DNA of 64,000 bases from a virus. Position numbers and translations under genes: made by a program. The notes beneath the pieces were generated by a model that saw only the letters and a list, made by a program, of their open reading frames with translations, did no database searches and was not told where the DNA came from. The DNA is taken from positions 36,902 to 100,901 of IMG/VR virus record IMGVR_UViG_3300043427_003273. One strand, given 5' to 3'. Positions 53,975-64,000 of the stretch are shown here, one piece after another. Numbering within the stretch: position 1 is the stretch's first letter; every line of letters starts with the position of its first letter.

Positions 53975-54232
53975 TCAGGGCAGGGGGGATGCCATTGCCT
54001 TGAAGGTGCCCCATGCGGTTTTGATCTTGGTTCCGATCCGTTTGCCAGAGGTGCAACCAGAGGACCATCCGAAGTGGGGGTTCCACTGTTGCACGTTGCC
54101 GCACCACTGAACCCAGTTGGTGTTGCCTGCGGGGCACCAGGGGTCGTCAGAGTACAGACGAACGTAACCGCAGACCGAGGAGAGTTCTGCCATGCGGAGT
54201 TCGATGCGTTCTGCGTCGGAGAGGTGGATCAC
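53975..54232 (-). CDS. Hypothetical protein, GTG start (85 aa)
   Basis: An 85-aa protein starting with GTG (read as Met), IHLSDAERIELRMAELSSVC. The start is supported by AAGGGA 5 nt upstream. A helix is followed by a Trp/Cys-rich half: PWCPAGNTNWVQWCGNVQQW, then HFGWSSGCTSG and a basic end. The three Cys and four Trp suggest a small compact or metal-binding domain. GC content is far higher than in the virion genes. The family is not recognised. Confidence 0.62.
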   Translation of the reverse strand: MIHLSDAERIELRMAELSSVCGYVRLYSDDPWCPAGNTNWVQWCGNVQQWNPHFGWSSGCTSGKRIGTKIKTAWGTFKAMASPLP

Positions 54233-54274
54233 GGGGTTTCCCTTGCGGTTGACTCTGACAGTGTAGCACGGGGA

Positions 54275-54292
54275 GGGGGCATTGCTGCCCCC
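54275..54292 (-). terminator. GC hairpin after the wHTH gene
   Basis: GGGGGCA / TGCCCCC stem with a 4-nt loop, 7 nt past the stop. A -10-like TACACT for the next gene follows about 13 nt later on the minus strand. Confidence 0.65.
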
Positions 54293-54298
54293 GTTGCC

Positions 54299-54577
54299 TC
54301 AGAACATGGTGGCAACGATGCGGTCCCGTTTGCGGATGGCATCGGTGCGGATGAACCACAGATCCCGTTTGCCCGTCTTCTCATTGCGGGTGGAACCCAG
54401 GATCTCCTGCCGTTCCATTTGGCAGAGCACTGCGTGGATCGTGCCCTTGTGCTCACGGGGGTTCAGACCCATGGCACGGGTGAGGTCGGAGAGGGTCTTA
54501 GGACCCTGCTGGATCAGGATGCCACGGGTGAAGACACGCACGGGCAGGGTCAGGACGGGGGTGAGGTCGAGGGTCAT
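54299..54577 (-). CDS. Winged-helix-like DNA-binding protein (92 aa)
   Basis: A 92-aa protein. From about residue 19 it reads like a small winged helix: GILIQQGPKTLSDLTRAMGL (helix 1, turn, helix 2), then KGTIHAVLCQMERQEILGST (recognition helix) and a wing RNEKTGKRDLWFIRTD with basic residues. That layout is typical of MarR/BlaI-like regulators. It could regulate phage early genes, but no operator is known. A -10-like TATACT lies upstream in the cassette promoter position. Confidence 0.72.
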   Translation of the reverse strand: MTLDLTPVLTLPVRVFTRGILIQQGPKTLSDLTRAMGLNPREHKGTIHAVLCQMERQEILGSTRNEKTGKRDLWFIRTDAIRKRDRIVATMF

Positions 54578-54620
54578 GGGGTGTTCCCTTGGTTGACTTG
54601 TTCAGTATAAGGGGTGGAGA

Positions 54621-54638
54621 GGGGGCACTGCTGCCCCC
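54621..54638 (-). terminator. GC hairpin after the GP88-like gene
   Basis: GGGGGCA / TGCCCCC stem with a 4-nt loop, directly after the 24-bp cassette element. Confidence 0.65.
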
Positions 54639-54640
54639 CA

Positions 54641-54664
54641 TGTGCAACTTAACGAACTGTCACA
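54641..54664 (-). repeat. 24-bp stop-straddling element, copy 1
   Basis: Minus strand: TGTGACAGTT, a 4-nt CGTT centre, AAGTTGCACA. The TGA stop of the GP88-like gene lies inside the left arm. The arms pair as AGTT/AAGTT-type with an end TGTG/CACA pair. Confidence 0.8.
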
Positions 54665-55385
54665 CCCCCAGTGCTGCCCGCAGTTCTTTCTTGACTGTAC
54701 GGTTTGCCCGTGCATGTTTGCCCCAGTCAGACCCTGCAGGTTGCGTACCATGCACCAGGATGGCATAAGGACCAGGAGTGAAACAATGCCGTTCGTCTAC
54801 ATCAACAGGCAGACCCAGAGCATCAGCAACCTCCACAGATTCGACGACCTTAGCATAACGAGGGAAGTATCCTTCGTCGATCAGGTAGTCAAACTTGCCA
54901 CCATAAGATGCGGTGAGGTAGAAGTTCTCGGGCAGATCCAAACCCATAAAAAGGTTGAGGGATTTGCTGTAGCAGTAGAACTTAATCGTAGGATTTGCCA
55001 TTGCCACCATCACCCATGCTTGGAGATAGTGTGCATTGAAGAAGTCACCCGATTCATGAATGCGAACACGTTTGTGCTTCTTCTTCAGGTTCTTATGCAG
55101 TTCGGTGTTGATAAAGTCGGCAAGGTTGCCATTCTTCATAACATCCAGAACCTGGGCAAAGTTGTCTGCACGGTTGAAGAATACCTGATCGTATTGCACC
55201 TCAGAGGATGCAGCAAAGCAACGGAACTCGGTGTGAGGACCATCTGCGATCTTGCGACCCTCAGGTGTCACAACTGCAAACGATTTGCAGAACATCGCAC
55301 CAGGGCAGGTCTTTCCTGCGGGCAGGTTGAAGATCAGGGTGTTTTTGTTGATCTTTGCGTTGCCAGTGGAGAAGTGCAGTGCCAT
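54660..55385 (-). CDS. GP88-family protein (241 aa)
   Basis: A 241-aa protein from MALHFSTGNAKINKNTLIFN. The segment LPAGKTCPGAMFCKSFA, the later ADGPHTEFRCFAA, KRVRIHESGDFFNAHYLQAW and KFYCYSKSLNLFMG match the phage 'gene product 88' family as I know it. Conserved Cys residues could bind a metal or cluster. Activity is unknown. The ATG at 55385 is chosen because the family begins with a similar LxFSTGNxK segment. A GC-rich cassette gene with a -10-like TACACT upstream. Confidence 0.78.
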   Translation of the reverse strand: MALHFSTGNAKINKNTLIFNLPAGKTCPGAMFCKSFAVVTPEGRKIADGPHTEFRCFAASSEVQYDQVFFNRADNFAQVLDVMKNGNLADFINTELHKNLKKKHKRVRIHESGDFFNAHYLQAWVMVAMANPTIKFYCYSKSLNLFMGLDLPENFYLTASYGGKFDYLIDEGYFPRYAKVVESVEVADALGLPVDVDERHCFTPGPYAILVHGTQPAGSDWGKHARANRTVKKELRAALGV

Positions 55386-55425
55386 TGGTTCAGGTGGTGA
55401 ACTTCGATCAGTGTAGGGCATGGGT

Positions 55426-55445
55426 GGGGACCGTTGCCGATCCCC
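55426..55445 (-). terminator. GC hairpin after the 53-aa acidic gene
   Basis: GGGGA / TCCCC stem (plus orientation), 10-nt loop with internal pairing. It follows the 24-bp element on the minus strand. Confidence 0.5.
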
Positions 55446-55446
55446 T

Positions 55447-55470
55447 TGTGCAGGTTGTCAGGGTGTCACA
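55447..55470 (-). repeat. 24-bp stop-straddling element, copy 2
   Basis: Minus strand: TGTGACACCC, TGAC centre, AACCTGCACA. The stop TGA of the 53-aa gene is in the centre, and its last codons (V-T-P) are encoded by the left arm. Confidence 0.8.
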
Positions 55471-55619
55471 GTGGGGATGTCATCAACCCACACAATACCC
55501 CACAACTCATCCACTGTAACCTCCAGCATTGCTGCCAGACCCTCATCATCCATCACCGCAGGGGAGATGTCGATCAGGGGGTGCTCGTCGATCTGGATCA
55601 TCGTGCAGAACAGGTCCAT
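55458..55619 (-). CDS. Small acidic protein (53 aa)
   Basis: A 53-aa protein: MDLFCTMIQIDEHPLIDISP, then a helix AVMDDEGLAAMLEV and an acidic end. It is acidic and mostly alpha/beta, with no recognised family. Its last codons and stop are part of cassette element copy 2, and a GC hairpin follows. Supported by the clean frame, GC-rich codon use like its neighbours and the cassette context. Confidence 0.65.
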   Translation of the reverse strand: MDLFCTMIQIDEHPLIDISPAVMDDEGLAAMLEVTVDELWGIVWVDDIPTVTP

Positions 55620-55657
55620 GGGTCGTTTGCGGTTGACTGGTTCATCCTACAGCATGA

Positions 55658-55678
55658 GGGGCACCGTTGGGGGTGCCC
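55658..55678 (-). terminator. GC hairpin after the 83-aa gene
   Basis: GGGGCACC / GGTGCCC stem, directly following the 24-bp element on the minus strand. No T run. Confidence 0.6.
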
Positions 55679-55696
55679 AGTTCACAAACCTTCACA
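55673..55696 (-). repeat. 24-bp stop-straddling element, copy 3 (divergent)
   Basis: Minus strand: TGTGAAGGTT, TGTG centre, AACTGGGCAC. The TGA stop of the 83-aa gene is inside the left arm. GGTT / AACT arms pair less fully than in other copies. Confidence 0.65.
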
Positions 55697-55943
55697 TCAT
55701 GGAAATGACTTGCATGATGCTAGAAACCTGAACAGGAGTTTGCCAGGAAATTACATCCTCCAGCATGTTGTTGTTGGGTCTGATGATAGCAACCTCAAAG
55801 GTATCCTCACCGATGACACCATACAGACCAGAACCTTTCGGACCTGCAACTACACTTACTTTCCATTCATTCGGGAAAGTATGTTGGGCAATCGTGCCAC
55901 CTTTGATGACACCATGATCACGAAAGTTCAGAGTGGAGAACAT
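55692..55943 (-). CDS. Hypothetical protein (83 aa)
   Basis: An 83-aa beta-rich protein from MFSTLNFRDHGVIKGGTIAQ, continuing through WKVSVVAGPKGSGLYGVIG and a strand TFEVAIIRPNNN to a methionine-rich end. The start at 55943 is preceded by GGACAGGA and a -10-like TATAGT. Function unknown; the GLYG turn and short strands suggest a small barrel. It ends in element copy 3. Confidence 0.68.
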   Translation of the reverse strand: MFSTLNFRDHGVIKGGTIAQHTFPNEWKVSVVAGPKGSGLYGVIGEDTFEVAIIRPNNNMLEDVISWQTPVQVSSIMQVISMM

Positions 55944-55980
55944 TGTCCTGTCCGATTGACTGAAACAACTATAAGGGGTC

Positions 55981-56002
55981 GGGGGCACCGTTTGGCACCC
56001 CC
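55981..56002 (-). terminator. GC hairpin with G-U pairs after the 149-aa gene
   Basis: On the minus-strand RNA GGGGGUGCC pairs with GGUGCCCCC through two adjacent G-U pairs. The plus-strand RNA cannot form these two pairs. This supports a role in the minus-strand transcript. Confidence 0.65.
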
Positions 56003-56003
56003 A

Positions 56004-56027
56004 GTGGACACCTGGCAAGGTGTCACA
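56004..56027 (-). repeat. 24-bp stop-straddling element, copy 4
   Basis: Minus strand: TGTGACACCT, TGCC centre, AGGTGTCCAC. It has a perfect ACACCT/AGGTGT inverted repeat. The TGA stop of the 149-aa gene is in the left arm. Confidence 0.85.
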
Positions 56028-56472
56028 TCTTGCCTTCTTTCACCAAACGATCATAAAGTGCAGAGGCAATCTTACCACATTCGGGACATGCTTTCGCATA
56101 CTTAATGTCCGAACGAAGTGTGGCAACGTTGTTGTTAGTCTTGGGCAGATACTTCACCCGATAAACTGCAGAAACCAGTTTGAGTAGTTGACGTTTCTGC
56201 AGATCACCATGAATGCTCTTCCACTGATAAACAGGGGTGAAATACTGATAGTTGTTGCCTTCGGTGCGGCACTTCTGCAGTGCCTTGATGATGTTGGCAG
56301 AAGTCAGATCACCGAAGTAAGGTGTGAGTTCCTGGTGCATAAACACGTCGAACTCTTCTGCTTCCGTGAGAACTTTGATCTTGTCGGTAAGAGACTCCAT
56401 GGTGCGTTGAATCGCATCCATGTTGCTCTTCAGGTTGAGGACTTCGTTCTGGAGGATAGCAATGGTGGTCAT
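56023..56472 (-). CDS. Hypothetical coiled-coil protein with Cys motif (149 aa)
   Basis: A 149-aa protein from MTTIAILQNEVLNLKSNMDA. The first 45 residues form a coiled coil (heptads through TMESLTDKIKVLTEAEE). The rest is mixed, ending with KACPECGKIASALYDRLVKE, a single CxxC knuckle. This could be a half zinc site completed by dimerisation through the coiled coil. The start is chosen at the ATG at 56472 with a CGGAGG-like site upstream. Function unknown. Confidence 0.7.
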   Translation of the reverse strand: MTTIAILQNEVLNLKSNMDAIQRTMESLTDKIKVLTEAEEFDVFMHQELTPYFGDLTSANIIKALQKCRTEGNNYQYFTPVYQWKSIHGDLQKRQLLKLVSAVYRVKYLPKTNNNVATLRSDIKYAKACPECGKIASALYDRLVKEGKM

Positions 56473-56554
56473 GATGTGTTGCGGAGGTGTGATGGGTGTG
56501 TGTCCCTCCGATGCACATAAGATCCCACAGATCCTGGGGCACCACAAGGGGGTT

Positions 56555-56578
56555 TGTGCCACCTGTCGAACTGTCCAT
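56555..56578 (-). repeat. 24-bp element, copy 5 (not at a stop codon)
   Basis: Minus strand: ATGGACAGTT, CGAC centre, AGGTGGCACA. It lies about 45 nt after the stop of the 62-aa gene, beyond the intrinsic terminator, and before the 149-aa gene leader. One of two copies not touching a stop. Confidence 0.75.
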
Positions 56579-56590
56579 TCTCATGTTGAC

Positions 56591-56616
56591 AAAAAAAAGA
56601 GGGGTGCTAACCCCTC
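56591..56616 (-). terminator. Intrinsic terminator after the 62-aa gene
   Basis: GAGGGGT / ACCCCTC stem with a 4-nt loop followed on the minus strand by eight T residues. It is the one classical intrinsic terminator in the right block and lies 6 nt after the stop. Confidence 0.9.
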
Positions 56617-56622
56617 ATGAGA

Positions 56623-56811
56623 TCAAAACTCGATCTCCCAATCTTTGTCGTGGTGAATGTCAACCCAGAAATGGTTTTTACCATTTGCAGATGTAACAAA
56701 CACCTTATCACCTTTGTTCTGTTCGATGATAACTTCATCAACAGAATCCATCAGATTTGCGAATCGGTTTTTTGCCTTTTTGGATTTGGGAAAGACAAAT
56801 GCTGTTTCCAT
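56623..56811 (-). CDS. Small hypothetical protein ending DWEIEF (62 aa)
   Basis: A 62-aa protein, METAFVFPKSKKAKNRFANL, a helix with a basic patch, then two strands (KVFVTSANGKNHFWVDI) and the tail KDWEIEF. The ATG overlaps the TAA of the gene before it (TAATG). That gene ends SDWIEF, a very similar tail. The shared D-W-x-E-F tail may be a functional handle for both proteins. Confidence 0.72.
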   Translation of the reverse strand: METAFVFPKSKKAKNRFANLMDSVDEVIIEQNKGDKVFVTSANGKNHFWVDIHHDKDWEIEF

Positions 56812-56954
56812 TAGAACTCAATCCAATCCGAAGTGGGTTCATTTGCAATCATAGCATCATCCTCCTCCCCCATGGCAATGGTGTCGAGGATCTTAAGAAT
56901 CTCTTCACCAGTGGAACCCTGACGAAGCATGGACAGCATGAGTTGTTTGGTCAT
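56811..56954 (-). CDS. Small hypothetical protein ending DWIEF (47 aa)
   Basis: A 47-aa protein from MTKQLMLSMLRQGSTGEEIL. It has an amphipathic helix (a GSTGEEILKILDTIA helix-turn part) and the tail TSDWIEF. A compact helix-turn-helix-like start is possible but too short to claim. Similar tiny proteins with a GxTGxEILxIL core occur in cyanophages. Translation is coupled to the next gene by TAATG. Confidence 0.72.
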   Translation of the reverse strand: MTKQLMLSMLRQGSTGEEILKILDTIAMGEEDDAMIANEPTSDWIEF

Positions 56955-56990
56955 GATAAGAATGTGTGAACGTTTGTAGTTTAGGTGATA

Positions 56991-57003
56991 ACTCGTCGAG
57001 ATT
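56991..57003. repeat. Odd palindrome CTCGTCGAG, copy A
   Basis: CTCGTCGAGATT, directly after the TAA of the 77-aa gene on the minus strand. It is one of four copies at 56,991, 57,728, 60,078 and 60,346. Confidence 0.6.
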
Positions 57004-57236
57004 TAAGTGTCTTGTGACACTTGTTCTTGTGTCACATCCTCGACCAGTTCTTGCCAGTATTCCTCATCATAAATTGATGTGATGAGGTCTTCCATGTCAT
57101 GTTGATTAGCAGATTGAAAAGAATCTACCAGCATCTCATAGAGCATTTGTTCCATTGATTTCGTGTCCATTTCATCAACGACACGATCACAATATTTCTC
57201 GATGATTTCATCGAGTTGTTGAGGAGTGAGATTCAT
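57003..57236 (-). CDS. Small conserved cyanophage protein (77 aa)
   Basis: A 77-aa acidic helical protein beginning MNLTPQQLDEIIEKYCDRVV. Residues EMDTKSMEQMLYEMLVDSFQ and IYDEEYWQELVEDV are the pattern of a cyanophage family I recognise only as hypothetical. It overlaps the preceding gene by ATGA (57233-57236). It is the last of a chain of six tightly packed small genes at 57.0-57.9 kb, all coupled by overlapping stops and starts or nearly so. Confidence 0.82.
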   Translation of the reverse strand: MNLTPQQLDEIIEKYCDRVVDEMDTKSMEQMLYEMLVDSFQSANQHDMEDLITSIYDEEYWQELVEDVTQEQVSQDT

Positions 57237-57442
57237 TTGATTTCACAATAATCAATGGACTTGATGCACCAACCTGTTTCATTTGTGATCTCATCAACGA
57301 GATCCTCTTCATCCTCAATGTCCCAATCGCAATTCATAACATTGCGAATGATCTCTTCTTGAGGAACAGGATCACCTTCCCATCCTTCATCATAATCATC
57401 ACCGAAATCAAACTCAATGGCAGTAATCTTGAAAGTTTTCAT
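57233..57442 (-). CDS. Small conserved cyanophage protein (69 aa)
   Basis: A 69-aa acidic protein, MKTFKITAIEFDFGDDYDEG, with a central helix and the end ITNETGWCIKSIDYCEIK. This two-layer alpha/beta pattern (strand, acidic loop, helix, then GWCIxSIDY strand) is a recurrent cyanophage hypothetical protein. ATGA overlap with both neighbours supports coupled translation. Confidence 0.82.
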   Translation of the reverse strand: MKTFKITAIEFDFGDDYDEGWEGDPVPQEEIIRNVMNCDWDIEDEEDLVDEITNETGWCIKSIDYCEIK

Positions 57443-57567
57443 TTTGCAGTAGAAGATGCGAAGGATTGAATACCATCAATGGCACGATTGCCCATGTTGG
57501 CTATACCATTGAAACCAACGGTTGAGAGAATAACTCCAACCACAAGACCAACGAAAAACTTACTCAT
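57439..57567 (-). CDS. Small membrane or secreted protein (42 aa)
   Basis: A 42-aa protein starting MSKFFVGLVVGVILSTVGFN. One hydrophobic segment (residues 4-18) and a polar Ala/Ser-rich tail; it may be a single-span membrane protein. It overlaps neighbours at both ends (ATGA). Tiny proteins of this sort are common in cyanophages. Confidence 0.72.
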   Translation of the reverse strand: MSKFFVGLVVGVILSTVGFNGIANMGNRAIDGIQSFASSTAK

Positions 57568-57698
57568 TGAGGCACCTCTTGAATCACCTCTTCAATGGAA
57601 ATGATTTGTTTGTCTTCATTGATGTAATCAGTGCGAACAAGATTCGGTCCAACTTGTGTTTGACCGATGATGTAAGCAGCAGCAAGAAGTTCAATCAT
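57564..57698 (-). CDS. Small hypothetical protein (44 aa)
   Basis: A 44-aa protein, MIELLAAAYIIGQTQVGPNL, then RTDYINEDKQIISIEEVIQE. A short hydrophobic helix is followed by a hairpin-like acidic part. Overlapping start and stop codons connect it to the genes on both sides. Function unknown. Confidence 0.7.
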   Translation of the reverse strand: MIELLAAAYIIGQTQVGPNLVRTDYINEDKQIISIEEVIQEVPQ

Positions 57699-57798
57699 CT
57701 TGTGTTTGGTAGTATTCAATGAGTGTATTCTCGTCGAGATTTTCTAACTCTTCGTCAGAAATCTGATTGAGAATTGAAAAGATGTCGTCAAAAGTCAT
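57691..57798 (-). CDS. Very small acidic protein (35 aa)
   Basis: A 35-aa acidic helical protein, MTFDDIFSILNQISDEELEN, then LDENTLIEYYQTQDD. Its NLDEN codons contain CTCGACGAG, the palindrome repeat copy B, so one repeat copy is coding. It overlaps the neighbouring genes at both ends. Confidence 0.65.
   Translation of the reverse strand: MTFDDIFSILNQISDEELENLDENTLIEYYQTQDD
57728..57743. repeat. Odd palindrome CTCGTCGAG, copy B (inside a coding region)
   Basis: TTCTCGTCGAGATTTT within the 35-aa gene. Flanks match copies C and D (GTATTCTCGTCGAGATT). Confidence 0.55.
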
Positions 57799-57913
57799 TG
57801 TTCGACTCCAACGCAACACCAAATGCGTAGTCATCGTATTCAATGTCATCGAAATCTTCAGATTCGATGAGATCCAGAAGTGGATCAGTGTTCAGAAGAT
57901 CGTCGTGCTCCAT
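57788..57913 (-). CDS. Very small acidic protein (41 aa)
   Basis: A 41-aa, strongly acidic protein: MEHDDLLNTDPLLDLIESED, then DIEYDDYAFGVALESN. It is the first gene of the six-gene chain. A -10-like CATAAT is found about 27-32 nt upstream after a perfect hairpin. Such acidic miniproteins may be DNA mimics or inhibitors of host enzymes; that is speculation. Confidence 0.65.
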   Translation of the reverse strand: MEHDDLLNTDPLLDLIESEDFDDIEYDDYAFGVALESNNDF

Positions 57914-57944
57914 GTGTTTGTTTCGACTCTTGTATTATGTAGCA

Positions 57945-57968
57945 GGACACTGGGGAAATCCAGTGTCC
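57945..57968 (-). terminator. Perfect hairpin after the 126-aa gene
   Basis: GGACACTGG / CCAGTGTCC, 9 perfect pairs with a 6-nt loop, right after the 24-bp element. No T run. Confidence 0.75.
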
Positions 57969-57969
57969 T

Positions 57970-57993
57970 TGTGCCACTTGTGAGAGTGTCTAC
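57970..57993 (-). repeat. 24-bp stop-straddling element, copy 6
   Basis: Minus strand: GTAGACACTC, TCAC centre, AAGTGGCACA, with CACT/AGTG arms. It begins at the stop (TAG) of the 126-aa gene. Confidence 0.85.
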
Positions 57994-58373
57994 TATTCGC
58001 AGAACACCTCACCCTTATGTGTTAACCACACTCTCTTTGCATTGTGTACATCACCATTGCGAGTTTGGAAGAAATCATTATGATAAGGATTGTAATTTAC
58101 CCTTACCATCTTCTCTTCACATCCCAATGTGTTTGCCATGAGTGTACCATACGCAAAGGCATGAACATACTTTTTGTTCTCTTTGCGGACACGATTCTGC
58201 CCTGCTTTGTTCACAACAAAGTGAACATCGTCGAGAACCACATAATCCCAACGCAACCACACTCTCCAACCCTTGGGAGTTTTGCGTTGAATGCTCCAGC
58301 AACCGTCCCGCAGGTTGCGGTAGACACGGACGGTCTCCTTGTGAAGAACGGGTTCGCCTTTGTGGTTTTTCAT
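57993..58373 (-). CDS. Hypothetical phage protein, HKETVRVYRNL type (126 aa)
   Basis: A 126-aa protein from MKNHKGEPVLHKETVRVYRN. Segments LRDGCWSIQRKTPKGWRVWL, FVVNKAGQNRVRKENKKYVH and AFAYGTLMANTL form a pattern I associate with a widespread phage hypothetical family (VYRNLxxGCWSIQ, then KNVHAFxxG). It is mainly beta with many basic residues. The start is after a leader repeat shared with the next gene; extending upstream would translate that repeat (ILRLFLRHLMK) in both genes, which I think is not real. Confidence 0.75.
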   Translation of the reverse strand: MKNHKGEPVLHKETVRVYRNLRDGCWSIQRKTPKGWRVWLRWDYVVLDDVHFVVNKAGQNRVRKENKKYVHAFAYGTLMANTLGCEEKMVRVNYNPYHNDFFQTRNGDVHNAKRVWLTHKGEVFCE

Positions 58374-58401
58374 GAGGTGTCTCAGGAACAAACGTAGTAT
58401 G
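58368..58401 (-). repeat. 34-bp leader repeat, copy 1
   Basis: Identical to 58,611-58,644 and ending in the ATG-AAA start of the gene. It contains a CATACTAC -10-like sequence followed by GTTTGTTCC and CCTGAGACACCTC. A diverged copy is at 59,122-59,150. It seems to be a duplicated promoter and 5' leader. Confidence 0.85.
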
Positions 58402-58411
58402 CCATGAATCA

Positions 58412-58431
58412 GGGGGGACCGCAATCCCCCC
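58412..58431 (-). terminator. GC hairpin after the 54-aa gene
   Basis: GGGGGGA / TCCCCCC stem with a 6-nt loop, directly after the 24-bp element. Confidence 0.7.
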
Positions 58432-58432
58432 G

Positions 58433-58456
58433 TGTGCCAGTTGTCAGGGTGTCACA
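58433..58456 (-). repeat. 24-bp stop-straddling element, copy 7
   Basis: Minus strand: TGTGACACCC, TGAC centre, AACTGGCACA. It differs from copy 2 only in two bases of the right arm. TGA stop of the 54-aa gene is in the left arm. Confidence 0.85.
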
Positions 58457-58616
58457 GGCACCCGTTGGCATCAAGAAAACCAGCACACCATCCATCCCCA
58501 TAATAGTAACCAATGTAATAGTTACCAAATGAGATACCAAATTGTTCTTCCATGTGATGGGTATTCTTCAGATCCCAACCAATGTAGAAGAATTTGGTGT
58601 TGAATGAGAATTTCAT
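58452..58616 (-). CDS. Small aromatic-rich protein (54 aa)
   Basis: A 54-aa protein, MKFSFNTKFFYIGWDLKNTH, then GISFGNYYIGYYYGDGWCAG and FLDANGCL. It is rich in Tyr, Phe and Gly and probably a small beta sheet. Not recognised. It uses the same 34-bp leader as the next gene, and the gene end is inside element copy 7. Confidence 0.65.
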   Translation of the reverse strand: MKFSFNTKFFYIGWDLKNTHHMEEQFGISFGNYYIGYYYGDGWCAGFLDANGCL

Positions 58617-58644
58617 GAGGTGTCTCAGGAACAAACGTAGTATG
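58611..58644 (-). repeat. 34-bp leader repeat, copy 2
   Basis: Identical to copy 1 at 58,368-58,401. See that entry. Confidence 0.85.
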
Positions 58645-58647
58645 GCA

Positions 58648-58673
58648 GGGATCTCATGAGAACACAAGACCCC
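58648..58673 (-). terminator. Hairpin-like repeat after the 145-aa gene
   Basis: GGGATCTCATGAGAAC then ACAAGACCC can fold through GGGTCTT-type arms and an inner TCTCATGAGA palindrome. Nearly identical to 59,158-59,183. Termination is inferred from position. Confidence 0.5.
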
Positions 58674-58674
58674 T

Positions 58675-58698
58675 TGTGCCAGTCTCTCAACTGGACAT
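58675..58698 (-). repeat. 24-bp stop-straddling element, copy 8
   Basis: Minus strand: ATGTCCAGTT, GAGA centre, GACTGGCACA, with CCAGT/ACTGG arms. The stop of the 145-aa gene is in the left arm and centre. Confidence 0.85.
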
Positions 58699-59124
58699 CT
58701 TTACATACTGCTCGATGATGTTTGAGATCTCAGAAGGACCAATCTGTGTACCATCCTTCAGTATAAACGACTGATAAGGATCGACACCTTCCCGAGAATC
58801 AATTGTGGTAGAATTGATGGTCATGAACTTAGAAGTCATGGCATCTTGACGAATTTGATCACTTAACCAATCCCAAAGTTCAGTGTCATGATTATCCTCT
58901 TCGGTGTCACAGTTAATGAGAATCTCATTCCCATTCTGCCACACGTACTTTTCAAACTCAGTGATCACATCATCATACTCCATGTCTGCCAACCAGGAGA
59001 TACTCTCACTGAGATCATCCACATGATTACCAATGAAATCTACAAGAGATTTAAAATACTCTTCCAGGTTAAAATCATCAGCAACCTGACACTTGGAAGT
59101 GCAAACAAATTGAGTGTAGGACAT
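58687..59124 (-). CDS. Hypothetical acidic protein (145 aa)
   Basis: A 145-aa acidic protein from MSYTQFVCTSKCQVADDFNL. It is helical in the first 90 residues (YFKSLVDFIGNHVDDLSESI and a WLADMEYDDVITEFE helix). The C-terminal part is LKDGTQIGPSEISNIIEQYV. There are few basic residues, so it is unlikely to bind DNA directly. No family is recognised. The leader is a diverged form of the 34-bp leader repeat. Confidence 0.72.
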   Translation of the reverse strand: MSYTQFVCTSKCQVADDFNLEEYFKSLVDFIGNHVDDLSESISWLADMEYDDVITEFEKYVWQNGNEILINCDTEEDNHDTELWDWLSDQIRQDAMTSKFMTINSTTIDSREGVDPYQSFILKDGTQIGPSEISNIIEQYVKMSS

Positions 59125-59157
59125 GAGAGTTCTGTGGGGAACAAATGTAATGTAACA

Positions 59158-59183
59158 GGGATCTTATGAGAACACAAGACCCC
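59158..59183 (-). terminator. Hairpin-like repeat after the 74-aa gene
   Basis: A nearly identical copy of the sequence at 58,648-58,673 (one difference), again between a 24-bp element and the following leader. Confidence 0.5.
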
Positions 59184-59184
59184 T

Positions 59185-59208
59185 TGTGCCACTTGATCAG
59201 GTGTCTGC
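59185..59208 (-). repeat. 24-bp stop-straddling element, copy 9
   Basis: Minus strand: GCAGACACCT, GATC centre, AAGTGGCACA, with CACCT/AAGTG arms. The TGA stop of the 74-aa gene starts in the left arm, and its last residues (A-D-T) are encoded there. Confidence 0.85.
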
Positions 59209-59421
59209 TGAGATGAAAGTTTCAAAGAACAAATCCCATGCGGGACTATCAGCAACAAAGGAATGAATTCCTACCTGATCACATACCCATTCGTATGCCA
59301 TATCGCAATCTGCGTTAGTATCTAACACAAATGATTGCAATCCAGAAATTACATCAAGAAACACTGAATCTTCAATCAAAGATTGACGAAACTTCTTGGT
59401 GTGCTGATCTTGGATGATCAT
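59197..59421 (-). CDS. Hypothetical protein (74 aa)
   Basis: A 74-aa acidic helical protein: MIIQDQHTKKFRQSLIEDSV, FLDVISGLQSFVLDTNADCD, then a Trp-containing C-terminal half (MAYEWVCDQVGIHSF) and the end ETFISADT. No family recognised. Its end lies in element copy 9. Confidence 0.68.
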   Translation of the reverse strand: MIIQDQHTKKFRQSLIEDSVFLDVISGLQSFVLDTNADCDMAYEWVCDQVGIHSFVADSPAWDLFFETFISADT

Positions 59422-59454
59422 GAGATTTGTGTGAACTGTGAATATCTTATGGGA

Positions 59455-59592
59455 TCAAATCCAGAACTGTTGGGACACTTGTGCAGGTTTTGAATCTGGC
59501 ACACCAGTCCTTGACCCATACCATCCCATGATGCTAAAGGCAATTCCCATAAGAACTGCAAAACTTACAAGTTCTGATGATTTAATATTCAC
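59455..59592 (-). CDS. Small membrane protein, GTG start (45 aa)
   Basis: A 45-aa protein starting with GTG that overlaps the TGA of the preceding gene (GTGA). NIKSSELVSFAVLMGIAFSI is followed by MGWYGSRTG and a proline-containing polar tail. One membrane helix (about residues 8-24) precedes it. The GTG start is chosen because of the stop-start overlap. Confidence 0.58.
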   Translation of the reverse strand: MNIKSSELVSFAVLMGIAFSIMGWYGSRTGVPDSKPAQVSQQFWI

Positions 59593-59729
59593 AGAAACTC
59601 CATCATGTAGTAATCAACAGTTACTTCCTGTTCTGCTGCTAATTCTTCCAATGCCATATCAAAGGCATTGTCAATCTCATTCTTTTGATCCTCATGATCA
59701 CAGAAGAGATCTAATGTTGATTCATTCAT
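59589..59729 (-). CDS. Small acidic protein (46 aa)
   Basis: A 46-aa acidic protein, MNESTLDLFCDHEDQKNEID, then a helix NAFDMALEELAAEQ and VTVDYYMMEFL. The ATG at 59729 is preferred over longer forms because a promoter with -35 TTGACA and -10 TATACT ends about 70 nt upstream, within the longer frame. Function unknown. Confidence 0.65.
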   Translation of the reverse strand: MNESTLDLFCDHEDQKNEIDNAFDMALEELAAEQEVTVDYYMMEFL

Positions 59730-59799
59730 GGTGGTGAGTGTTTTAGAGGTCTCTGAGATCTTATAAGAGTTAATAACCCTTATCAACCTCGACAAGGCA

Positions 59800-59829
59800 A
59801 GTATAGCATCAATCAGCATACCCTGTCAA
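59800..59829 (-). promoter_or_regulatory. Sigma70-type promoter (minus strand)
   Basis: TTGACA at 59,824-59,829 and TATACT at 59,800-59,805 with an 18-bp spacer, pointing toward the 46-aa acidic gene. Perfect -35 and one mismatch in -10 suggest use by host RNA polymerase early in infection. Confidence 0.75.
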
Positions 59830-59891
59830 GCCCCCTCGGTGTGTTGGACGAAACCAACATAAGACCCTTATGGGGGATCTGATGCCAACCC

Positions 59892-59915
59892 TGTGCCACT
59901 TGCAGAAGTGTCCAC
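59892..59915 (-). repeat. 24-bp element, copy 10 (not at a stop codon)
   Basis: Minus strand: GTGGACACTT, CTGC centre, AAGTGGCACA, with perfect CACTT/AAGTG arms. No gene ends here, so it may mark a lost gene or act independently of translation. Confidence 0.8.
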
Positions 59916-60077
59916 AATGCGGGTTTTGCGGGGTGTTCAATGCTTATAATACGGAGACAATCAAATGAGAGGTGGGGTAACCTTGTTGATTAAATGTTCG
60001 ACACTGAACCTGCAATAAAATAATTATCATAAGATACTAAAAAGGATCCCTGATATCAGGAATCCTTATGTGTGTAT

Positions 60078-60090
60078 TCTCGTCGAGATT
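60078..60090. repeat. Odd palindrome CTCGTCGAG, copy C
   Basis: TCTCGTCGAGATT, between the end of the 64-aa gene and the intergenic stretch to its left. It shares GTGTATT on the left with copy B. Confidence 0.6.
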
Positions 60091-60102
60091 TTTATGATAT
60101 AT

Positions 60103-60297
60103 TCACCACCTATCAGGGCATGAGAGATCTTCCACATAACTGGAAACTTTCTCATTTGCTTGAAGATCCAGAACTTTATTCCAATCAATTTGATGTGGAT
60201 CAAAGTCATCGAGTGCTTCAATTTCCAATGTGACTCTATACTTTTGTTTTTGCATTGCACGATAGACAGACATAAGAACCTCGGGGAATTGGAACAT
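60103..60297 (-). CDS. Small hypothetical protein (64 aa)
   Basis: A 64-aa protein from MFQFPEVLMSVYRAMQKQKY. A helix is followed by a strand (RVTLEIEALDDF) and an alpha/beta end with VLDLQANEKVSSYVEDLS. The ATG at 60297 is chosen because a promoter (-35 TTGACA, -10 TAAACT) lies at 60,302-60,330, directly before it; longer forms would include the promoter. Function unknown. Confidence 0.65.
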   Translation of the reverse strand: MFQFPEVLMSVYRAMQKQKYRVTLEIEALDDFDPHQIDWNKVLDLQANEKVSSYVEDLSCPDRW

Positions 60298-60301
60298 ATT
60301 C

Positions 60302-60330
60302 AGTTTATCATGATGTGGGTGGGGTGTCAA
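60302..60330 (-). promoter_or_regulatory. Sigma70-type promoter (minus strand)
   Basis: TTGACA at 60,325-60,330 and TAAACT at 60,302-60,307, spacer 17 bp. Its -10 is only a few bases from the start codon of the 64-aa gene, which would leave almost no leader. The tandem promoter at 60,462 may be the real source. Confidence 0.5.
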
Positions 60331-60345
60331 CTGTTCTTATGTATA

Positions 60346-60358
60346 TCTCGTCGAGATT
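60346..60358. repeat. Odd palindrome CTCGTCGAG, copy D
   Basis: TCTCGTCGAGATT, just upstream (minus direction) of the 60,302-60,330 promoter, where an operator would be expected. Part-matches GAATCTCGACG recur at 60,510 and 60,690. Confidence 0.6.
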
Positions 60359-60461
60359 ATTTGAGATCTTATGTGAGCATAAGATAACATAAGAAAAAAG
60401 ATGATCTCGATGGTATTTGTTGAGCATCATCGAGATTCACCTTGGTTAACCCACCGAAGAC

Positions 60462-60490
60462 ATCATAAGACATCTATGGGAATCTGTCAA
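60462..60490 (-). promoter_or_regulatory. Sigma70-type promoter (minus strand)
   Basis: TTGACA at 60,485-60,490 and TATGAT at 60,462-60,467, spacer 17 bp, pointing left toward the 64-aa gene. Confidence 0.7.
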
Positions 60491-60609
60491 CCCCTGTTCT
60501 TATGAGATGTGTGAGAATCTCGACATGCCTGGGTGATTAGGAGATCTTATGTGATAAGGAGTTCTTATGTGAAAAAATGTCTCGGGGTCCAGAAAAAAAA
60601 TCGTCCCCC

Positions 60610-60638
60610 TTGACAAAAAAACCATCGTGTGTTATAAT
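60610..60638 (+). promoter_or_regulatory. Perfect consensus sigma70 promoter (plus strand)
   Basis: TTGACA at 60,610-60,615, 17-bp spacer, TATAAT at 60,633-60,638. It is the best promoter I found in the window and the only strong one facing right. The transcript would cross the iterons and the DnaA-type boxes and reach the HNH gene after a leader of about 290 nt. Confidence 0.85.
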
Positions 60639-60736
60639 AGGCGGTCTAAGATCACAAGATCCCGACGCATTTATAATGATATAATGTGAATCTCGACGCA
60701 TTTATAAGATATAAAAGAACACATAAGAACACATAT

Positions 60737-60776
60737 GATATGATGTGAATCTAGTAGAGATATGATGTGAATCTAG
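60737..60776. repeat. Iteron-like 18-bp direct repeats
   Basis: GATATGATGTGAATCTAG occurs twice, perfectly, at 60,737-60,754 and 60,759-60,776 (period 22 bp, about two helical turns). A third partial copy (ATRATGTGAATCT) is at 60,681-60,693. Confidence 0.85.
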
Positions 60777-60833
60777 TTGAGAACCTTTTATTTATACCAT
60801 AAAATTGTGAGCAAAACATAACACAAACCATAT

Positions 60834-60865
60834 TTTTCCACAAAGTTTTCCACAGGTTTTCCACA
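60834..60865 (+). promoter_or_regulatory. Cluster of three DnaA-type boxes
   Basis: TTTTCCACA at 60,834-60,842, 60,846-60,854 and 60,857-60,865, same orientation, start spacing 12 and 11 bp. TTTTCCACA is the box described for cyanobacterial DnaA. Another perfect box (61,017-61,025) and TATTCCACA (61,029-61,037) lie just inside the HNH gene. Confidence 0.75.
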
Positions 60866-60938
60866 ATGACATACATCCTGATCCCATCTATGTGCATGTC
60901 ATACCATACATAATCTAGTACACTTGAGAACACTGACT

Positions 60939-61511
60939 ATGACTAAGAAATGGTTAAATGAACTCAAAGGAATGCAATGCTATGAAGGATACTATATTAC
61001 ACCAGAAGGTCTGATCTTTTCCACAAAGTATTCCACAGATAGACAACTTAAATTTAATGATGTGAAAGAGTATAAGACCATACGATTGAGCAATGGTAAG
61101 GGTGAGAATCGTACCTTCTATGTTCATCGTCTTATTGCATTATCCTTTCTTCCGAATCCATCATGTGCAGTGAAGATCAGACATAAGAACGGAAACACAC
61201 ATGATAATCATGTGACTAACTTAGAATGGATTGTGAAGAAAAAGATCATTCGTAAGTATGATCCTATTAAGAGTAGAGAACGATATGAGAAGAATAAAAG
61301 CAAGAAAGAATATTTGGATCCATCTTGTCTAATTGTGAATAAGGACATGAGTGATAGAATACGTTTGATTCATTATGCCACAATACAAAAAGGACTCTCA
61401 ACACCTGTAGAAGATTATGACTTCTTCTATAAGATCTTACATGAGAGTTTGAATGAATATATTAACCGTTATGGTTTGAGACGTATTATGTTTCAACTTG
61501 GGAATAATTGA
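60939..61511 (+). CDS. HNH endonuclease with NUMOD4-like N-terminus (190 aa)
   Basis: The only convincing plus-strand gene of the window. From the ATG at 60939: WLNELKGMQCYEGYYITPEG is NUMOD4-like (residues ~5-35). The HNH core is YVHRLIALSFLPNP (H63), RHKNGNTHDNHVTNLEW (H82, N90 and N94). The C-terminal ~85 residues are basic, then helical, possibly DNA binding. Such free-standing HNH enzymes are usually homing endonucleases that cut at or near a target in related phages lacking the gene. Two DnaA-type boxes are in codons ~27-33. The last 19 bp overlap the convergent gene. A TTG five codons upstream is unlikely as the start. Confidence 0.85.
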   Translation: MTKKWLNELKGMQCYEGYYITPEGLIFSTKYSTDRQLKFNDVKEYKTIRLSNGKGENRTFYVHRLIALSFLPNPSCAVKIRHKNGNTHDNHVTNLEWIVKKKIIRKYDPIKSRERYEKNKSKKEYLDPSCLIVNKDMSDRIRLIHYATIQKGLSTPVEDYDFFYKILHESLNEYINRYGLRRIMFQLGNN

Positions 61512-61894
61512 GAAATGACGATTTCACCTTTGAAATGATTTTGTAGTTTTTTGATTTTTTCCTTGAATTTGTTTGGTGGGCAGGTTTGTCGTCCTAGGTT
61601 CATCAGACGTAACGTAATCACGACATTTCCAGGAATATATCCTTTCGACTCATCTAATCGGTCTAATGATGGTGCAAATGGATTTTGAGATTCATACACA
61701 CCATAAGGATCAATAGGATAATCAGACCAATAACATTTACCATCTTGACTCTTATATTGTTGTGCAATATATTGTTCGGTGATTGTCACATCCAATGGTT
61801 CAGTTCTTTTGATTCCATTCTTTTTCTCTTGCCCTGGTTTTGCGGCGGACTTTGCTTTGGCAAGAAGTGTTTTCCATGGATTACGTTGTTTCAT
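61493..61894 (-). CDS. Second HNH-type endonuclease (133 aa)
   Basis: A 133-aa protein, convergent with the first HNH gene. Basic N-terminus, then QDGKCYWSDYPID (Cys54), PSLDRLDESKGYIPGNVV (D78-R79, then N90) and LMNLGRQTCPPNKF. The SLDRxDxSKGYxxGN pattern is typical of a compact HNH group where DR replaces DH. It is probably a nuclease acting on DNA, either as homing enzyme or in host or phage DNA processing. It overlaps the next upstream small gene by 14 bp. Confidence 0.8.
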   Translation of the reverse strand: MKQRNPWKTLLAKAKSAAKPGQEKKNGIKRTEPLDVTITEQYIAQQYKSQDGKCYWSDYPIDPYGVYESQNPFAPSLDRLDESKGYIPGNVVITLRLMNLGRQTCPPNKFKEKIKKLQNHFKGEIVISQLFPS

Positions 61895-62054
61895 GTCGTT
61901 TTTTACATACAGATCGTGCCCAGGCAGAAGCGAATGATTGAATCACAGAGCATGATTTCCCCACTTTACCACAATAGGGGCATGGTGTTGAATCAATGAT
62001 CTTTGGTTTTCTCTTTTTTGCGTTTTCTGCTTGTTTTCGTTTGTGGTGATTCAT
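61881..62054 (-). CDS. Small Cys/His zinc-knuckle-like protein (57 aa)
   Basis: A 57-aa basic protein: MNHHKRKQAENAKKRKPKII, then STPCPYCGKVGKSCSVIQSF and WARSVCKKRHETT. CPYC with the later Cys-His residues looks like a zinc site. The ATG overlaps the TGA of the upstream membrane protein gene (ATGA), and its end overlaps the HNH gene, so translation is coupled in a three-gene unit. It may help the HNH enzyme bind DNA; inference from neighbourhood only. Confidence 0.7.
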   Translation of the reverse strand: MNHHKRKQAENAKKRKPKIIDSTPCPYCGKVGKSCSVIQSFASAWARSVCKKRHETT

Positions 62055-62359
62055 TCTTTGTTCAGGAACCACCAACCCAGACCAATCAGAATGGCAATCG
62101 GGAGAATAATATACCAATATGCCACAACTGCACCGATGGCAAATAGAATACCGATAATTGCCCATCCACCACTGCCCAGTTCGATGCCACCACCACCTCC
62201 GCCACCAGAACCACGGACTTCTCGCAAATTGATGATTTGCTCTGCACCGTAGATGTTTTTCAGTTGCTCATGTGCTCCATTGATCGTGTTGGCAGATACT
62301 TCGATGTCTTGATAACCCGAAGCACTACCCAACCAGCATTTCGCAGTCCATCGTGCCAT
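62051..62359 (-). CDS. Small membrane protein with Gly-rich linker (102 aa)
   Basis: A 102-aa protein from MARWTAKCWLGSASGYQDIE (ATG at 62359 with GGAGAA upstream). Residues ~1-50 form a small soluble domain (STVNGAHEQL-like helix and an EQIINLREV strand), then a Gly-rich linker (SGGGGGGG), then two strongly hydrophobic helices (about residues 64-82 and 84-97) to the end FLNKE. It appears anchored in a membrane with the N-terminal domain outside or inside the cell unknown. Similar two-part proteins are found in cyanophages. Confidence 0.75.
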   Translation of the reverse strand: MARWTAKCWLGSASGYQDIEVSANTINGAHEQLKNIYGAEQIINLREVRGSGGGGGGGIELGSGGWAIIGILFAIGAVVAYWYIILPIAILIGLGWWFLNKE

Positions 62360-62386
62360 AATGAGATTTCTCCTTGTGATGTGTGT

Positions 62387-62416
62387 ATGATAGCATGAAA
62401 AAGGGGGATTTGACAA
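62387..62416 (-). promoter_or_regulatory. Promoter overlapping a hairpin (minus strand)
   Basis: TTGTCA at 62,411-62,416 (in the hairpin loop and arm) and TATCAT at 62,387-62,392, spacer 18 bp. It precedes the membrane protein gene, so the terminator-like hairpin of the upstream gene and the promoter of the next gene share DNA. Confidence 0.55.
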
Positions 62417-62422
62417 TCCCCC
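62403..62422 (-). terminator. Perfect GC hairpin after the 161-aa gene
   Basis: GGGGGATT / AATCCCCC with a 4-nt loop, followed by a short T run (TTTTT) on the minus strand. It is one of the few right-block hairpins that look like a true intrinsic terminator. Confidence 0.8.
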
Positions 62423-62429
62423 GTGTGAT

Positions 62430-62915
62430 TCACTTCATGTAAAGATAAGAACCTGCCCAATCAGCACGACGGTAACATTCCTCACGGGATTGCTTGTCCA
62501 TGAGATTGTAACGCACATGCTTGGCAGGCGATTTCCATGTTGCAGGTTTATACACTTCACCAGTGAATTTGTTCACAAAAGCATGAATGCTCTTTTGCTT
62601 CACACTGCCATCATGATTGACATTAGTTTCCGTTTCAATGCGAAGATACTTGCGACCTTCGACAATGTAGAAACTCATGCCATAATCATAAGTGCCATTG
62701 CGAATCTGCTCCAGGCACTTCTCATGATAACCCACATAAGACCCATCCACAATACCATTGTTGGCAATGGCATGTTGATGAGATTTCGTGGTGTAAAGAC
62801 GGAAGTTCTCATCCAGGGCATTGACCAGGGATTCAGTGTAACGAAGAACATCGTTCACTTGTGCTTCCACCACTGGACGGGTGGCAACGAAGTCAGAGAA
62901 GGTGCTGGTGGTCAT
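62430..62915 (-). CDS. Hypothetical cyanophage protein (161 aa)
   Basis: A 161-aa protein, MTTSTFSDFVATRPVVEAQV, then a helix (LRYTESLVNALDEN) and a beta-rich middle (YDYGMSFYIVEGRKYLRIET) ending in FVNKFTGEVYKPATWKSPAK, then HVRYNLMDKQSREECYRRAD. The segment VxKxTGEVYKPA resembles a turn common in cyanophage hypothetical proteins. A strong GGAGG site precedes the ATG. The role is unknown. Confidence 0.8.
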   Translation of the reverse strand: MTTSTFSDFVATRPVVEAQVNDVLRYTESLVNALDENFRLYTTKSHQHAIANNGIVDGSYVGYHEKCLEQIRNGTYDYGMSFYIVEGRKYLRIETETNVNHDGSVKQKSIHAFVNKFTGEVYKPATWKSPAKHVRYNLMDKQSREECYRRADWAGSYLYMK

Positions 62916-62950
62916 GGAAGGGGTGCCTCCTTGTGTATGAATGTATTGTA

Positions 62951-62977
62951 GGGCATCCTGGGTGCCAGTCGATGCCC
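62951..62977 (-). terminator. GC hairpin after the 56-aa gene
   Basis: GGGCATC / GATGCCC stem, directly after element copy 11; -10-like TACAAT follows at once on the minus strand. Confidence 0.65.
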
Positions 62978-62979
62978 TG

Positions 62980-63003
62980 TGTGCCAGTTTGCAAACCGTC
63001 TAC
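62980..63003 (-). repeat. 24-bp stop-straddling element, copy 11
   Basis: Minus strand: GTAGACGGTT, TGCA centre, AACTGGCACA, with GGTTT/AAACT arms. The stop TAG of the 56-aa gene lies in the first bases. Confidence 0.85.
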
Positions 63004-63170
63004 TCTACGTTGCAGTCGGGATGCCAGTGTGCTTGTTGCTGACAATACCTTTCCTTGGGTGAATACCCATTTGCCTTGAACAGTGCATCATCACGTTGAA
63101 TCAGAAATGCGTTCCATCCAACAATCGCAGCAAAAGCAGCAATTCCAAAACCAATGTACTTAAGTTTCAT
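63000..63170 (-). CDS. Small membrane-anchored protein (56 aa)
   Basis: A 56-aa protein, MKLKYIGFGIAAFAAIVGWN with a single N-terminal membrane helix or signal anchor (residues 4-19), then a polar domain (AFLIQRDDALFKANGYSPKE) and a tail RYCQQQAHWHPDC with His and two Cys. It could be a membrane-anchored metal-binding peptide. It is 7 nt after the stop of the 156-aa gene. Its stop is in copy 11. Confidence 0.68.
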   Translation of the reverse strand: MKLKYIGFGIAAFAAIVGWNAFLIQRDDALFKANGYSPKERYCQQQAHWHPDCNVE

Positions 63171-63177
63171 TTGTCAA

Positions 63178-63648: not shown

Positions 63649-63673
63649 GATAATGCTCCTGTGTGTAAGTGAA

Positions 63674-63835
63674 TCAGTTTTCAGGATAGAGTTTCCAACC
63701 ATCAGGTTGAATACCCATTTCTTCACAACGCACTTCATAAACAATGCGTTTCAGAAGACGCAGGGGCATTTCCTGCTCGATTGTTTTCTGAATGATGCGA
63801 CGGAGTTGTGCGTCTGTGGTAGTGTCAGTGACCAT
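63674..63835 (-). CDS. Small hypothetical protein (53 aa)
   Basis: A 53-aa protein: MVTDTTTDAQLRRIIQKTIE, then a helical middle (QEMPLRLLKRIVYEVR) and CEEMGIQPDGWKLYPEN. Mostly amphipathic helix. It starts after a -10-like TATACT with AACAAGG next to it, and ends 25 nt before the 156-aa gene. No family recognised. Confidence 0.68.
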   Translation of the reverse strand: MVTDTTTDAQLRRIIQKTIEQEMPLRLLKRIVYEVRCEEMGIQPDGWKLYPEN

Positions 63836-63867
63836 TGGAGTGTCCGTTGATTACCTTGTTAGTATAA

Positions 63868-63894
63868 GGGCACCCTGCGTGGTGCTGGATGCCC
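63868..63894 (-). terminator. GC hairpin after the right-edge gene
   Basis: GGGCA / TGCCC closing pairs with inner pairing; follows element copy 12 and precedes the -10-like TATACT of the 53-aa gene. Confidence 0.6.
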
Positions 63895-63896
63895 TG

Positions 63897-63920
63897 TGTG
63901 CCAGTTCTTATGCTGTCACA
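63897..63920 (-). repeat. 24-bp stop-straddling element, copy 12
   Basis: Minus strand: TGTGACAGCA, TAAG centre, AACTGGCACA. The TAA stop of the right-edge gene is in the centre, and its last codons (V-T-A) are encoded by the left arm. Confidence 0.8.
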
Positions 63921-64000
63921 TAGTTGGGAATGTCAACACGTTCTGCGATGCCAAACATACCAGTTTTGTATGCTTTCCAGTTGTCATTCAGATCGAACAG
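63908..64000 (-). CDS. Hypothetical protein (partial, 3' end only)
   Basis: The last 30 codons of a gene that enters from the right edge: LFDLNDNWKAYKTGMFGIAE, then RVDIPNYVTA and the stop. The stop is part of element copy 12. Too short for identification. Confidence 0.65.
   Translation of the reverse strand: MFDLNDNWKAYKTGMFGIAERVDIPNYVTA

Follow-up and report, generated by a model that had tools for sequence, protein, structure and literature searches.

The locus examined here raises the question of why short sequences recur between unrelated small genes of a phage genome, and whether they are traces of the shuffling of single genes together with their expression signals. The stretch of DNA analyzed (64,000 nucleotides, hereafter the window) comes from a virus record of 100,901 bases, whose proteins match phage families for the major head protein, portal, tail sheath, terminase and baseplate wedge. 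All DNA matches of the region are to cyanophages (106 records). The genome carrying the repeats is that of a T4-like cyanophage (Kyanoviridae), and the repeats lie in its variable region, where small genes, most of them without a known function, follow one another next to the baseplate genes. Small variable genes occupy the same place in relatives and in ACG-2014f-type isolates. Genes and intergenic elements of the region are listed in Table 1.

Other features of the window were recorded along the way. The structural region (19223-48547) contains three very long open reading frames of 2800, 2767 and 3661 aa. Repeated motifs (CTCGACG and ACATAAGA) occupy 60331-61492, together with two copies of TTTTCCACAAAGTNTTCCACAG at 60834 and 61017, and a perfect TTGACA-17-TATAAT is found on the plus strand at 60610-60638. 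An HNH-like open reading frame (60924-61511; HNH_3, just below the Pfam cut-off) lies on the strand opposite to that promoter-like sequence, and its 3' end overlaps the 3' end of an endonuclease VII/HNH-like gene on the other strand (61493-61894, phrog_3322). The Pfam family PF25735, named after gene 82 of mycobacteriophage L5, is carried as a shuffled single-gene cassette in cyanophages.

Table 1. Genes and linkers of the variable region, in coordinates of the window.
Feature	Position	Strand	Model R1 E-value	Context and sequence signals
Gene F55	59197..59421	-		74 aa; phrog_714 (unknown function)
Gene F20	58687..59124	-		145 aa; no Pfam or PHROG match
54-aa gene	58452..58616	-		54 aa; no family match
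Gene F23	57993..58373	-		126 aa; Pfam PF25735 (Phage_L5_gp82)
Linker A	59125..59207	-	2.4e-20	Between genes 59197-59421 and 58687-59124; model match in record coordinates G000:C1:96023-96108; box with stop codon; GGCAC 59186-59190; hairpin GGGGTCTT..AAGATCCC; -35-like TTGTGT 59172-59177; -10 TACATT 59149-59154
Linker B	58617..58694	-	3.6e-19	Between genes 58687-59124 and 58452-58616; GGCAC 58676-58680; hairpin same as linker A; leader identical to linker C; -35-like TTGTGT 58662-58667; -10 CATACT 58639-58644
Linker C	58374..58457	-	8.5e-19	Between genes 58452-58616 and 57993-58373; different hairpin (GGGGGGA..TCCCCCC); -35-like TTGCGG 58419-58424; -10 CATACT 58396-58401
Linker D	57914..57991	-	1e-6	Downstream of gene 57993-58373; hairpin GGACACTGG..CCAGTGTCC; -10-like CATAAT
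Linker E	59840..59914	-	7e-5	Diverged
Linker F	62363..62427	-	0.002	Diverged; hairpin GGGGGATT-GTCA-AATCCCCC containing TTGTCA, a T run; -10 TATCAT
Linker G	62922..63002	-	8e-11	
Further linker	63833..63921	-	3e-10	Dyad match 63897-63920
Further linker	54575..54666	-	3e-8	Dyad match 54641-54664
Further linker	55392..55471	-	2e-4	Weak
Further linker	56965..57038	-	0.004	Weak; dyad match 57013-57036
Further linker	56526..56578	-	0.005	Weak

Two halves of one linker

Sequence comparison bore out the repeats described in the initial annotation. The 34-bp leader copies (58368-58401 and 58611-58644, minus strand) are exactly identical and run from the -10 hexamer through codon 2 (ATG AAA), the 34-bp end-module copies (58647-58680 and 59157-59190, minus strand), which contain GGCACA and a hairpin, differ at one position, and the genes between them are indeed unrelated. 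Only four pairs of exact direct repeats of at least 20 bp occur across the 64 kb, two of which are the leader pair and the end-module pair, the latter through a 26-bp exact core, which rules out a chance origin. The proposed order, a leader followed by an end module, had to be reversed because all genes around the repeats are on the minus strand, so that the end module lies upstream of the leader in transcription. Only 2 nt separate the two at 58611-58680, where they make up a single intergenic element; both repeats are halves of one linker of ~80 nt. Three related spacers (family D2; 58374-58457, 58617-58694 and 59125-59207) display these halves in different combinations: the first and second have a common leader half, from the -10 hexamer to the second codon, with different hairpins, and the second and third have a common hairpin half with different leaders.

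The reading that we favor, with a probability of roughly 0.8, is that the repeats are copies of a composite gene linker whose recombination gains, loses and swaps genes. Each linker spans the interval between the stop codon of a small accessory gene and the start codon of the gene that follows. The upstream gene ends at a stop codon inside a conserved dyad box, a GC-rich hairpin would probably end or insulate its message, and the next gene would start from a putative host-type promoter with its -35 element inside the hairpin. Because 30-90 nt are common to many copies, these could recombine, either inside a single genome or among co-infecting phages. Complete genes, singly or a few at a time, would thereby be added, deleted or swapped with their expression signals still working, and each junction would keep a hybrid linker, as observed in marine relatives and as we infer for the gene order of the window itself. 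Half-matches of the kind seen in family D2, where one leader accompanies two hairpins and one hairpin accompanies two leaders, are the expected leftovers of such crossovers.

Anatomy of the linker

A common layout of box, GC-rich hairpin, hexamer, leader and ATG was found in 70 non-duplicate elements from the window and its relatives; these were collected by similarity, nine matches without GGCAC being skipped and duplicates uncounted. On the coding strand, the 24-nt box has the consensus TGTGACAGTCTGACAACTGGCACA over 165 linkers. The stop codon of the upstream gene falls within the box in 135 of these 165, and in 155 of them GGCAC and ATG are 62 to 76 nt apart. The consensus of the box has dyad symmetry and can be written as the 24-bp dyad TGTGNCAST-N6-ASTGNCACA (for example at 58433-58456), which precedes the -35-like site by a few bases. 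Four copies of the symmetric pattern occur in the window, where 0.24 would be expected. We rejected RNA pairing within the box: although it is symmetric in consensus, its halves are not compensatory between copies (5.98 of 9 pairs, against 6.06 with halves dealt among elements), which makes a DNA dyad likelier than an RNA stem. No known regulator site matched the 24-bp dyad. It seems rather unlikely that the box is the working site of a dedicated protein, of phage or host, that acts on all linkers, the box serving as an operator directly 5' of the -35 element, as a recombination or cleavage site, or as both. The variable region would then amount to an array of single-gene cassettes that maintains itself, every cassette having a stop box, an insulator, a promoter and a leader of its own.

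The hairpins belong to several unrelated sequence types. Over the 70 elements, the 42 nt following GG fold at a mean of -14.5 kcal/mol, against -6.5 kcal/mol in shuffles. For linker C, the full spacer shows no folding advantage over its own shuffles (z -0.40). RNAalifold returned no consensus pair and no alignment-based covariation for the linker alignment because hairpin geometry differs. A known structured RNA family was ruled out by the lack of any Rfam match, with E up to 1, across 54000-64000.

In 26 of 42 aligned elements, a TTG is located inside the hairpin exactly 17 nt before the -10 hexamer, which itself has A at position 2 and T at position 6. This count and alignment A1 cover 42 of 45 reference elements (L026:6167-6263, L012:4266-4354 and L021:3030-3122 were left out as doubtful), and with those three included it would be no lower than 26 of 45. 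The other spacings between 13 and 22 nt each gave a count of 0 or 1, and composition-preserving shuffles gave at most 4. Since the elements are related, the 26 cases are not independent; hairpins of different sequence nonetheless keep TTG at this position. The arrangement fits a host-type promoter embedded in the hairpin, its activity being predicted from sequence. The hairpin probably also ends or insulates the upstream message. Termination is conjectural, since a T run is missing from most hairpins; it receives some help from a terminator annotated in S-CRM01 at one linker-type site.

Distribution of the linker family

We searched for linkers with a model, R1, whose E-values are rough, so that the weakest matches may be due to chance. 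At E ≤ 1, the record of the window gave 12 matches, all on the coding strand and all in the small-gene region, at 54575-63921 of the window. Each of the nine named cyanomyoviruses gave 5 to 38 matches: DSL-LC03, S-RIM8 and Syn9 (5 each), ACG-2014b (8), P-SSM2 (12), S-CRM01 (14), S-PM2 (15), S-SRM01 (20) and ACG-2014f (38). Model R1 had no match in T4. Isolates of the ACG-2014f type contain 26-34 elements per 34 kb. A 23-nt box pattern was found in 42 stretches of the viral_contigs set and nowhere in genome_contigs, which rules out a host-derived sequence. The linker is a Kyanoviridae-wide composite element, occurring in viruses of both freshwater and marine cyanobacteria.

Same genes, other neighbors

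Relative contigs were fetched by protein or by DNA pattern, and their genes were called with a simple chain of open reading frames, which misplaced some starts and missed the 54-aa gene in L010 and L011, where it is visible as an upstream open reading frame and by start codons. The protein query for F23 (57993-58379) was two codons too long, its start being at 58373. The genes of the window were found elsewhere with the same kind of flanks, and linkers lie at the junctions where single genes have different neighbors. F20, which lies between F55 and the 54-aa gene in the window, is found between F62 and the 54-aa gene in L010 and L011, between a 49-aa open reading frame and F2 in L012, and between F33 and F5 in L013 and L014. 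Its DNA is 91.6 to 99.5% identical across relatives; between L012 and L014 it is 99.5% identical, and both flanks fall to chance identity within about 80 nt. Likewise, F23 lies between the 54-aa gene and F56 in the window, between F15 and F5 in L008, and downstream of a different neighbor, a 167-aa open reading frame, in L009. A 67-nt stretch of linker B recurs at 100% identity in L015, L019 and L020, where the element lies between F2 and F25. These observations, with the same genes and similar flanks beside other neighbors, support the earlier proposal of modular shuffling of single genes with their expression signals; a constant set of repeats and a constant gene order across all relatives, which would speak against it, is not what these contigs show.

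Leaders often move with the downstream gene; in L008, L014 and L026, F5 has the same leader behind two different hairpin types. Within a contig, hairpins resemble one another more than they do overall, pairs above 90% identity making up 4.8% of 353 within-contig pairs and 0.7% of all pairs (165 of the 222 boundaries typed as elements were used), a likeness reached in 0 of 2000 label permutations. This is the expected product of recombination or conversion between copies.

Crossovers inside linkers of close marine isolates

Gains, losses and replacements were compared in seven ACG-2014f-type isolates, whose sequences mostly share 92 to 99.8% identity across 34 kb and less in some right-hand blocks. 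The analysis used 214 of 224 model matches, leaving out nine on the minus strand and L082:30449-30493. Over 41 distinct junction signatures, 49 of 82 breakpoints fall in elements, which with margins cover 8 to 10% of the isolate sequence. After the signatures were collapsed by hand to 17 loci (those of L079 and L080 near 31 kb being folded into locus m), 21 of 34 breakpoints fall in elements: nine loci have both ends in elements, three have one and five have neither. If breakpoints are assumed to fall at random gene boundaries, the excess has P = 0.002 when elements are taken to occupy 36% of boundaries, the fraction measured in L077, and P rises to 0.037 at 45% and 0.11 at 50%.

Three events can be followed inside the element. 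At event f, a 168-nt gene lies between two elements in L077 and is absent from L082 and L083, each of which has one element; informative sites of this element mainly agree with the first L077 element as far as the end of the hairpin and with the second once the leader begins, a few upstream sites being opposite. At event l, L083 has one element and L082 has two with a gene between them, and the informative sites switch once across an identical core of ~47 nt, giving a clean hybrid; in the comparison with L077 they are mixed. At event c, one element is present in L077 as two tandem copies, and no gene is involved. The hybrid linkers at events f, c and l arose by crossover within the element. 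The informative sites of events m and n, which were also aligned, are mixed, so we do not claim them as clean hybrids.

Separately, event e (L077:15935-16126, KJ019059) is the loss of a small gene in L080 and L083 across a 41-nt homology overlap at gene starts. It has no linker and represents a second kind of repeat-mediated loss. Event k is the gain or loss of an HNH gene in ACG-2014f.

Broad divergence and alternative explanations

At broader divergence the picture changes. Among 45 contigs (17 of 62 having been dropped as redundant), homology at ≥75% identity continues past 168 of 335 linker boundaries (50%) and past 230 of 477 tight junctions (48%). Family-level adjacency, assessed in 19 contigs, is kept at 0.127 of hairpin junctions and 0.222 of tight ones (permutation p about 0.096). 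Because breaks are as frequent at tight junctions, linkers are not the only or preferred break points at this scale, and genes in the variable region turn over at all kinds of junction. Recombination junctions that map to the repeats are seen in close marine isolates, where crossovers lie inside the repeat; at broad divergence the linkers show no such preference.

The breaks at tight junctions without linkers are also what would be expected if the linkers were conserved for regulation only, as a shared early promoter and hairpin, while genes moved by illegitimate recombination at whichever gene end and selection kept the junctions that left genes intact. The five of 17 isolate loci without an element at either end, and event e with its direct match of 41 nt at gene starts and no element, agree with such an explanation. 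It does not account for hybrid linkers whose informative sites switch inside the element, for the 67 nt identical in other contigs with other flanks, or for homogenization within contigs, and we consider it quite improbable. Turnover might instead be driven by homing endonucleases, with linkers as bystanders used by repair. The two adjoining endonuclease-like genes described above (phrog_3322 and HNH_3) and the HNH gene of event k speak for this, and endonucleases have been proposed for other cyanophage cassettes in the account of Sullivan et al. 2010 (PMC3037559); the genes of events f and l are annotated as hypothetical proteins, however, and event c involves no gene, and we consider endonuclease-driven turnover very unlikely. 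A local duplication of spacers in this one genome, without any shuffling, would explain why the copies lie within 800 bp and are common to adjacent genes. We rejected it, its probability being practically negligible, since the same element occurs with other genes in many contigs and isolates.

Recombination between copies of a composite linker, the reading that we prefer, would have consequences beyond this locus. Much of the unexplained gene diversity of cyanophages resides in their variable regions, and the mechanism by which genes enter and exit was left open for S-PM2 by Puxty et al. 2015 (PMC4503421). A searchable linker model, present in all nine other cyanomyovirus records, makes gene entry and exit testable: each gain or loss predicts a hybrid linker. 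Linkers also give predicted promoters for many unknown genes and a rule for dividing the variable region into units of inheritance.

Comparison with known systems

T4-type phages are reported to carry PeSLs (promoter early stem-loops), said to be mobile regulatory cassettes, and gene cassettes and a hyperplastic region have reportedly been described in cyanophages. Like a PeSL, the linker combines a stem-loop with an early-type promoter between small variable-region genes, as judged here from folding and from the TTG-17-hexamer arrangement; it is repeated, with many copies between such genes, and is tied to gene gain, loss and swap by recombination. Exchange junctions fall inside the element in isolates (events f, c and l; 21 of 34 breakpoints), the broad-scale result being negative. 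On its predicted signals, the linker would work like a PeSL. It differs in that its family is found in all Kyanoviridae records tested, with no R1 match in T4. Further features of the linker are the 24-nt dyad box with its stop codon, the predicted -35 element inside the hairpin and the near-constant length to ATG. In the cassette-array reading the logic is analogous to that of an integron; here it would be driven by general phage recombination.

Puxty et al. 2015 (PMC4503421), discussing S-PM2, considered it improbable that PeSLs are the mechanism there, given their low density. We found 15 R1 matches at E ≤ 1 in this phage, more than the two stem-loops named in that discussion, and the match at 11348-11429 covers a stem-loop listed there at 11369-11391. 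Among the Rho-independent terminators of Synechococcus phage S-CRM01, the one annotated at 150748-150767 overlaps a match of linker B; the entries concerned in the S-CRM01 feature table give these sites as terminators only and note no promoter, box or repeat family. Variable gene clusters of the same kind of phage appear as cassettes or a hyperplastic region in Sullivan et al. 2010 (PMC3037559), whose passages on cassettes predict promoters and terminators beside some cassette genes, ascribe mobility to tRNAs, endonucleases or a plasmid stability protein, and mention no intergenic repeat. In their analysis of recombination in wild cyanophages, Gregory et al. 2016 (PMC5112629) placed some breakpoints in intergenic regions, and the words promoter, stem and repeat are absent from the text searched. 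A literature search for PeSL with cyanophage and related terms found no description of the linker, which may be in print elsewhere. The linker is a variant of the PeSL-like kind, distinguished by its family-wide occurrence, its stop-codon box, a likely promoter in the hairpin and demonstrable crossovers.
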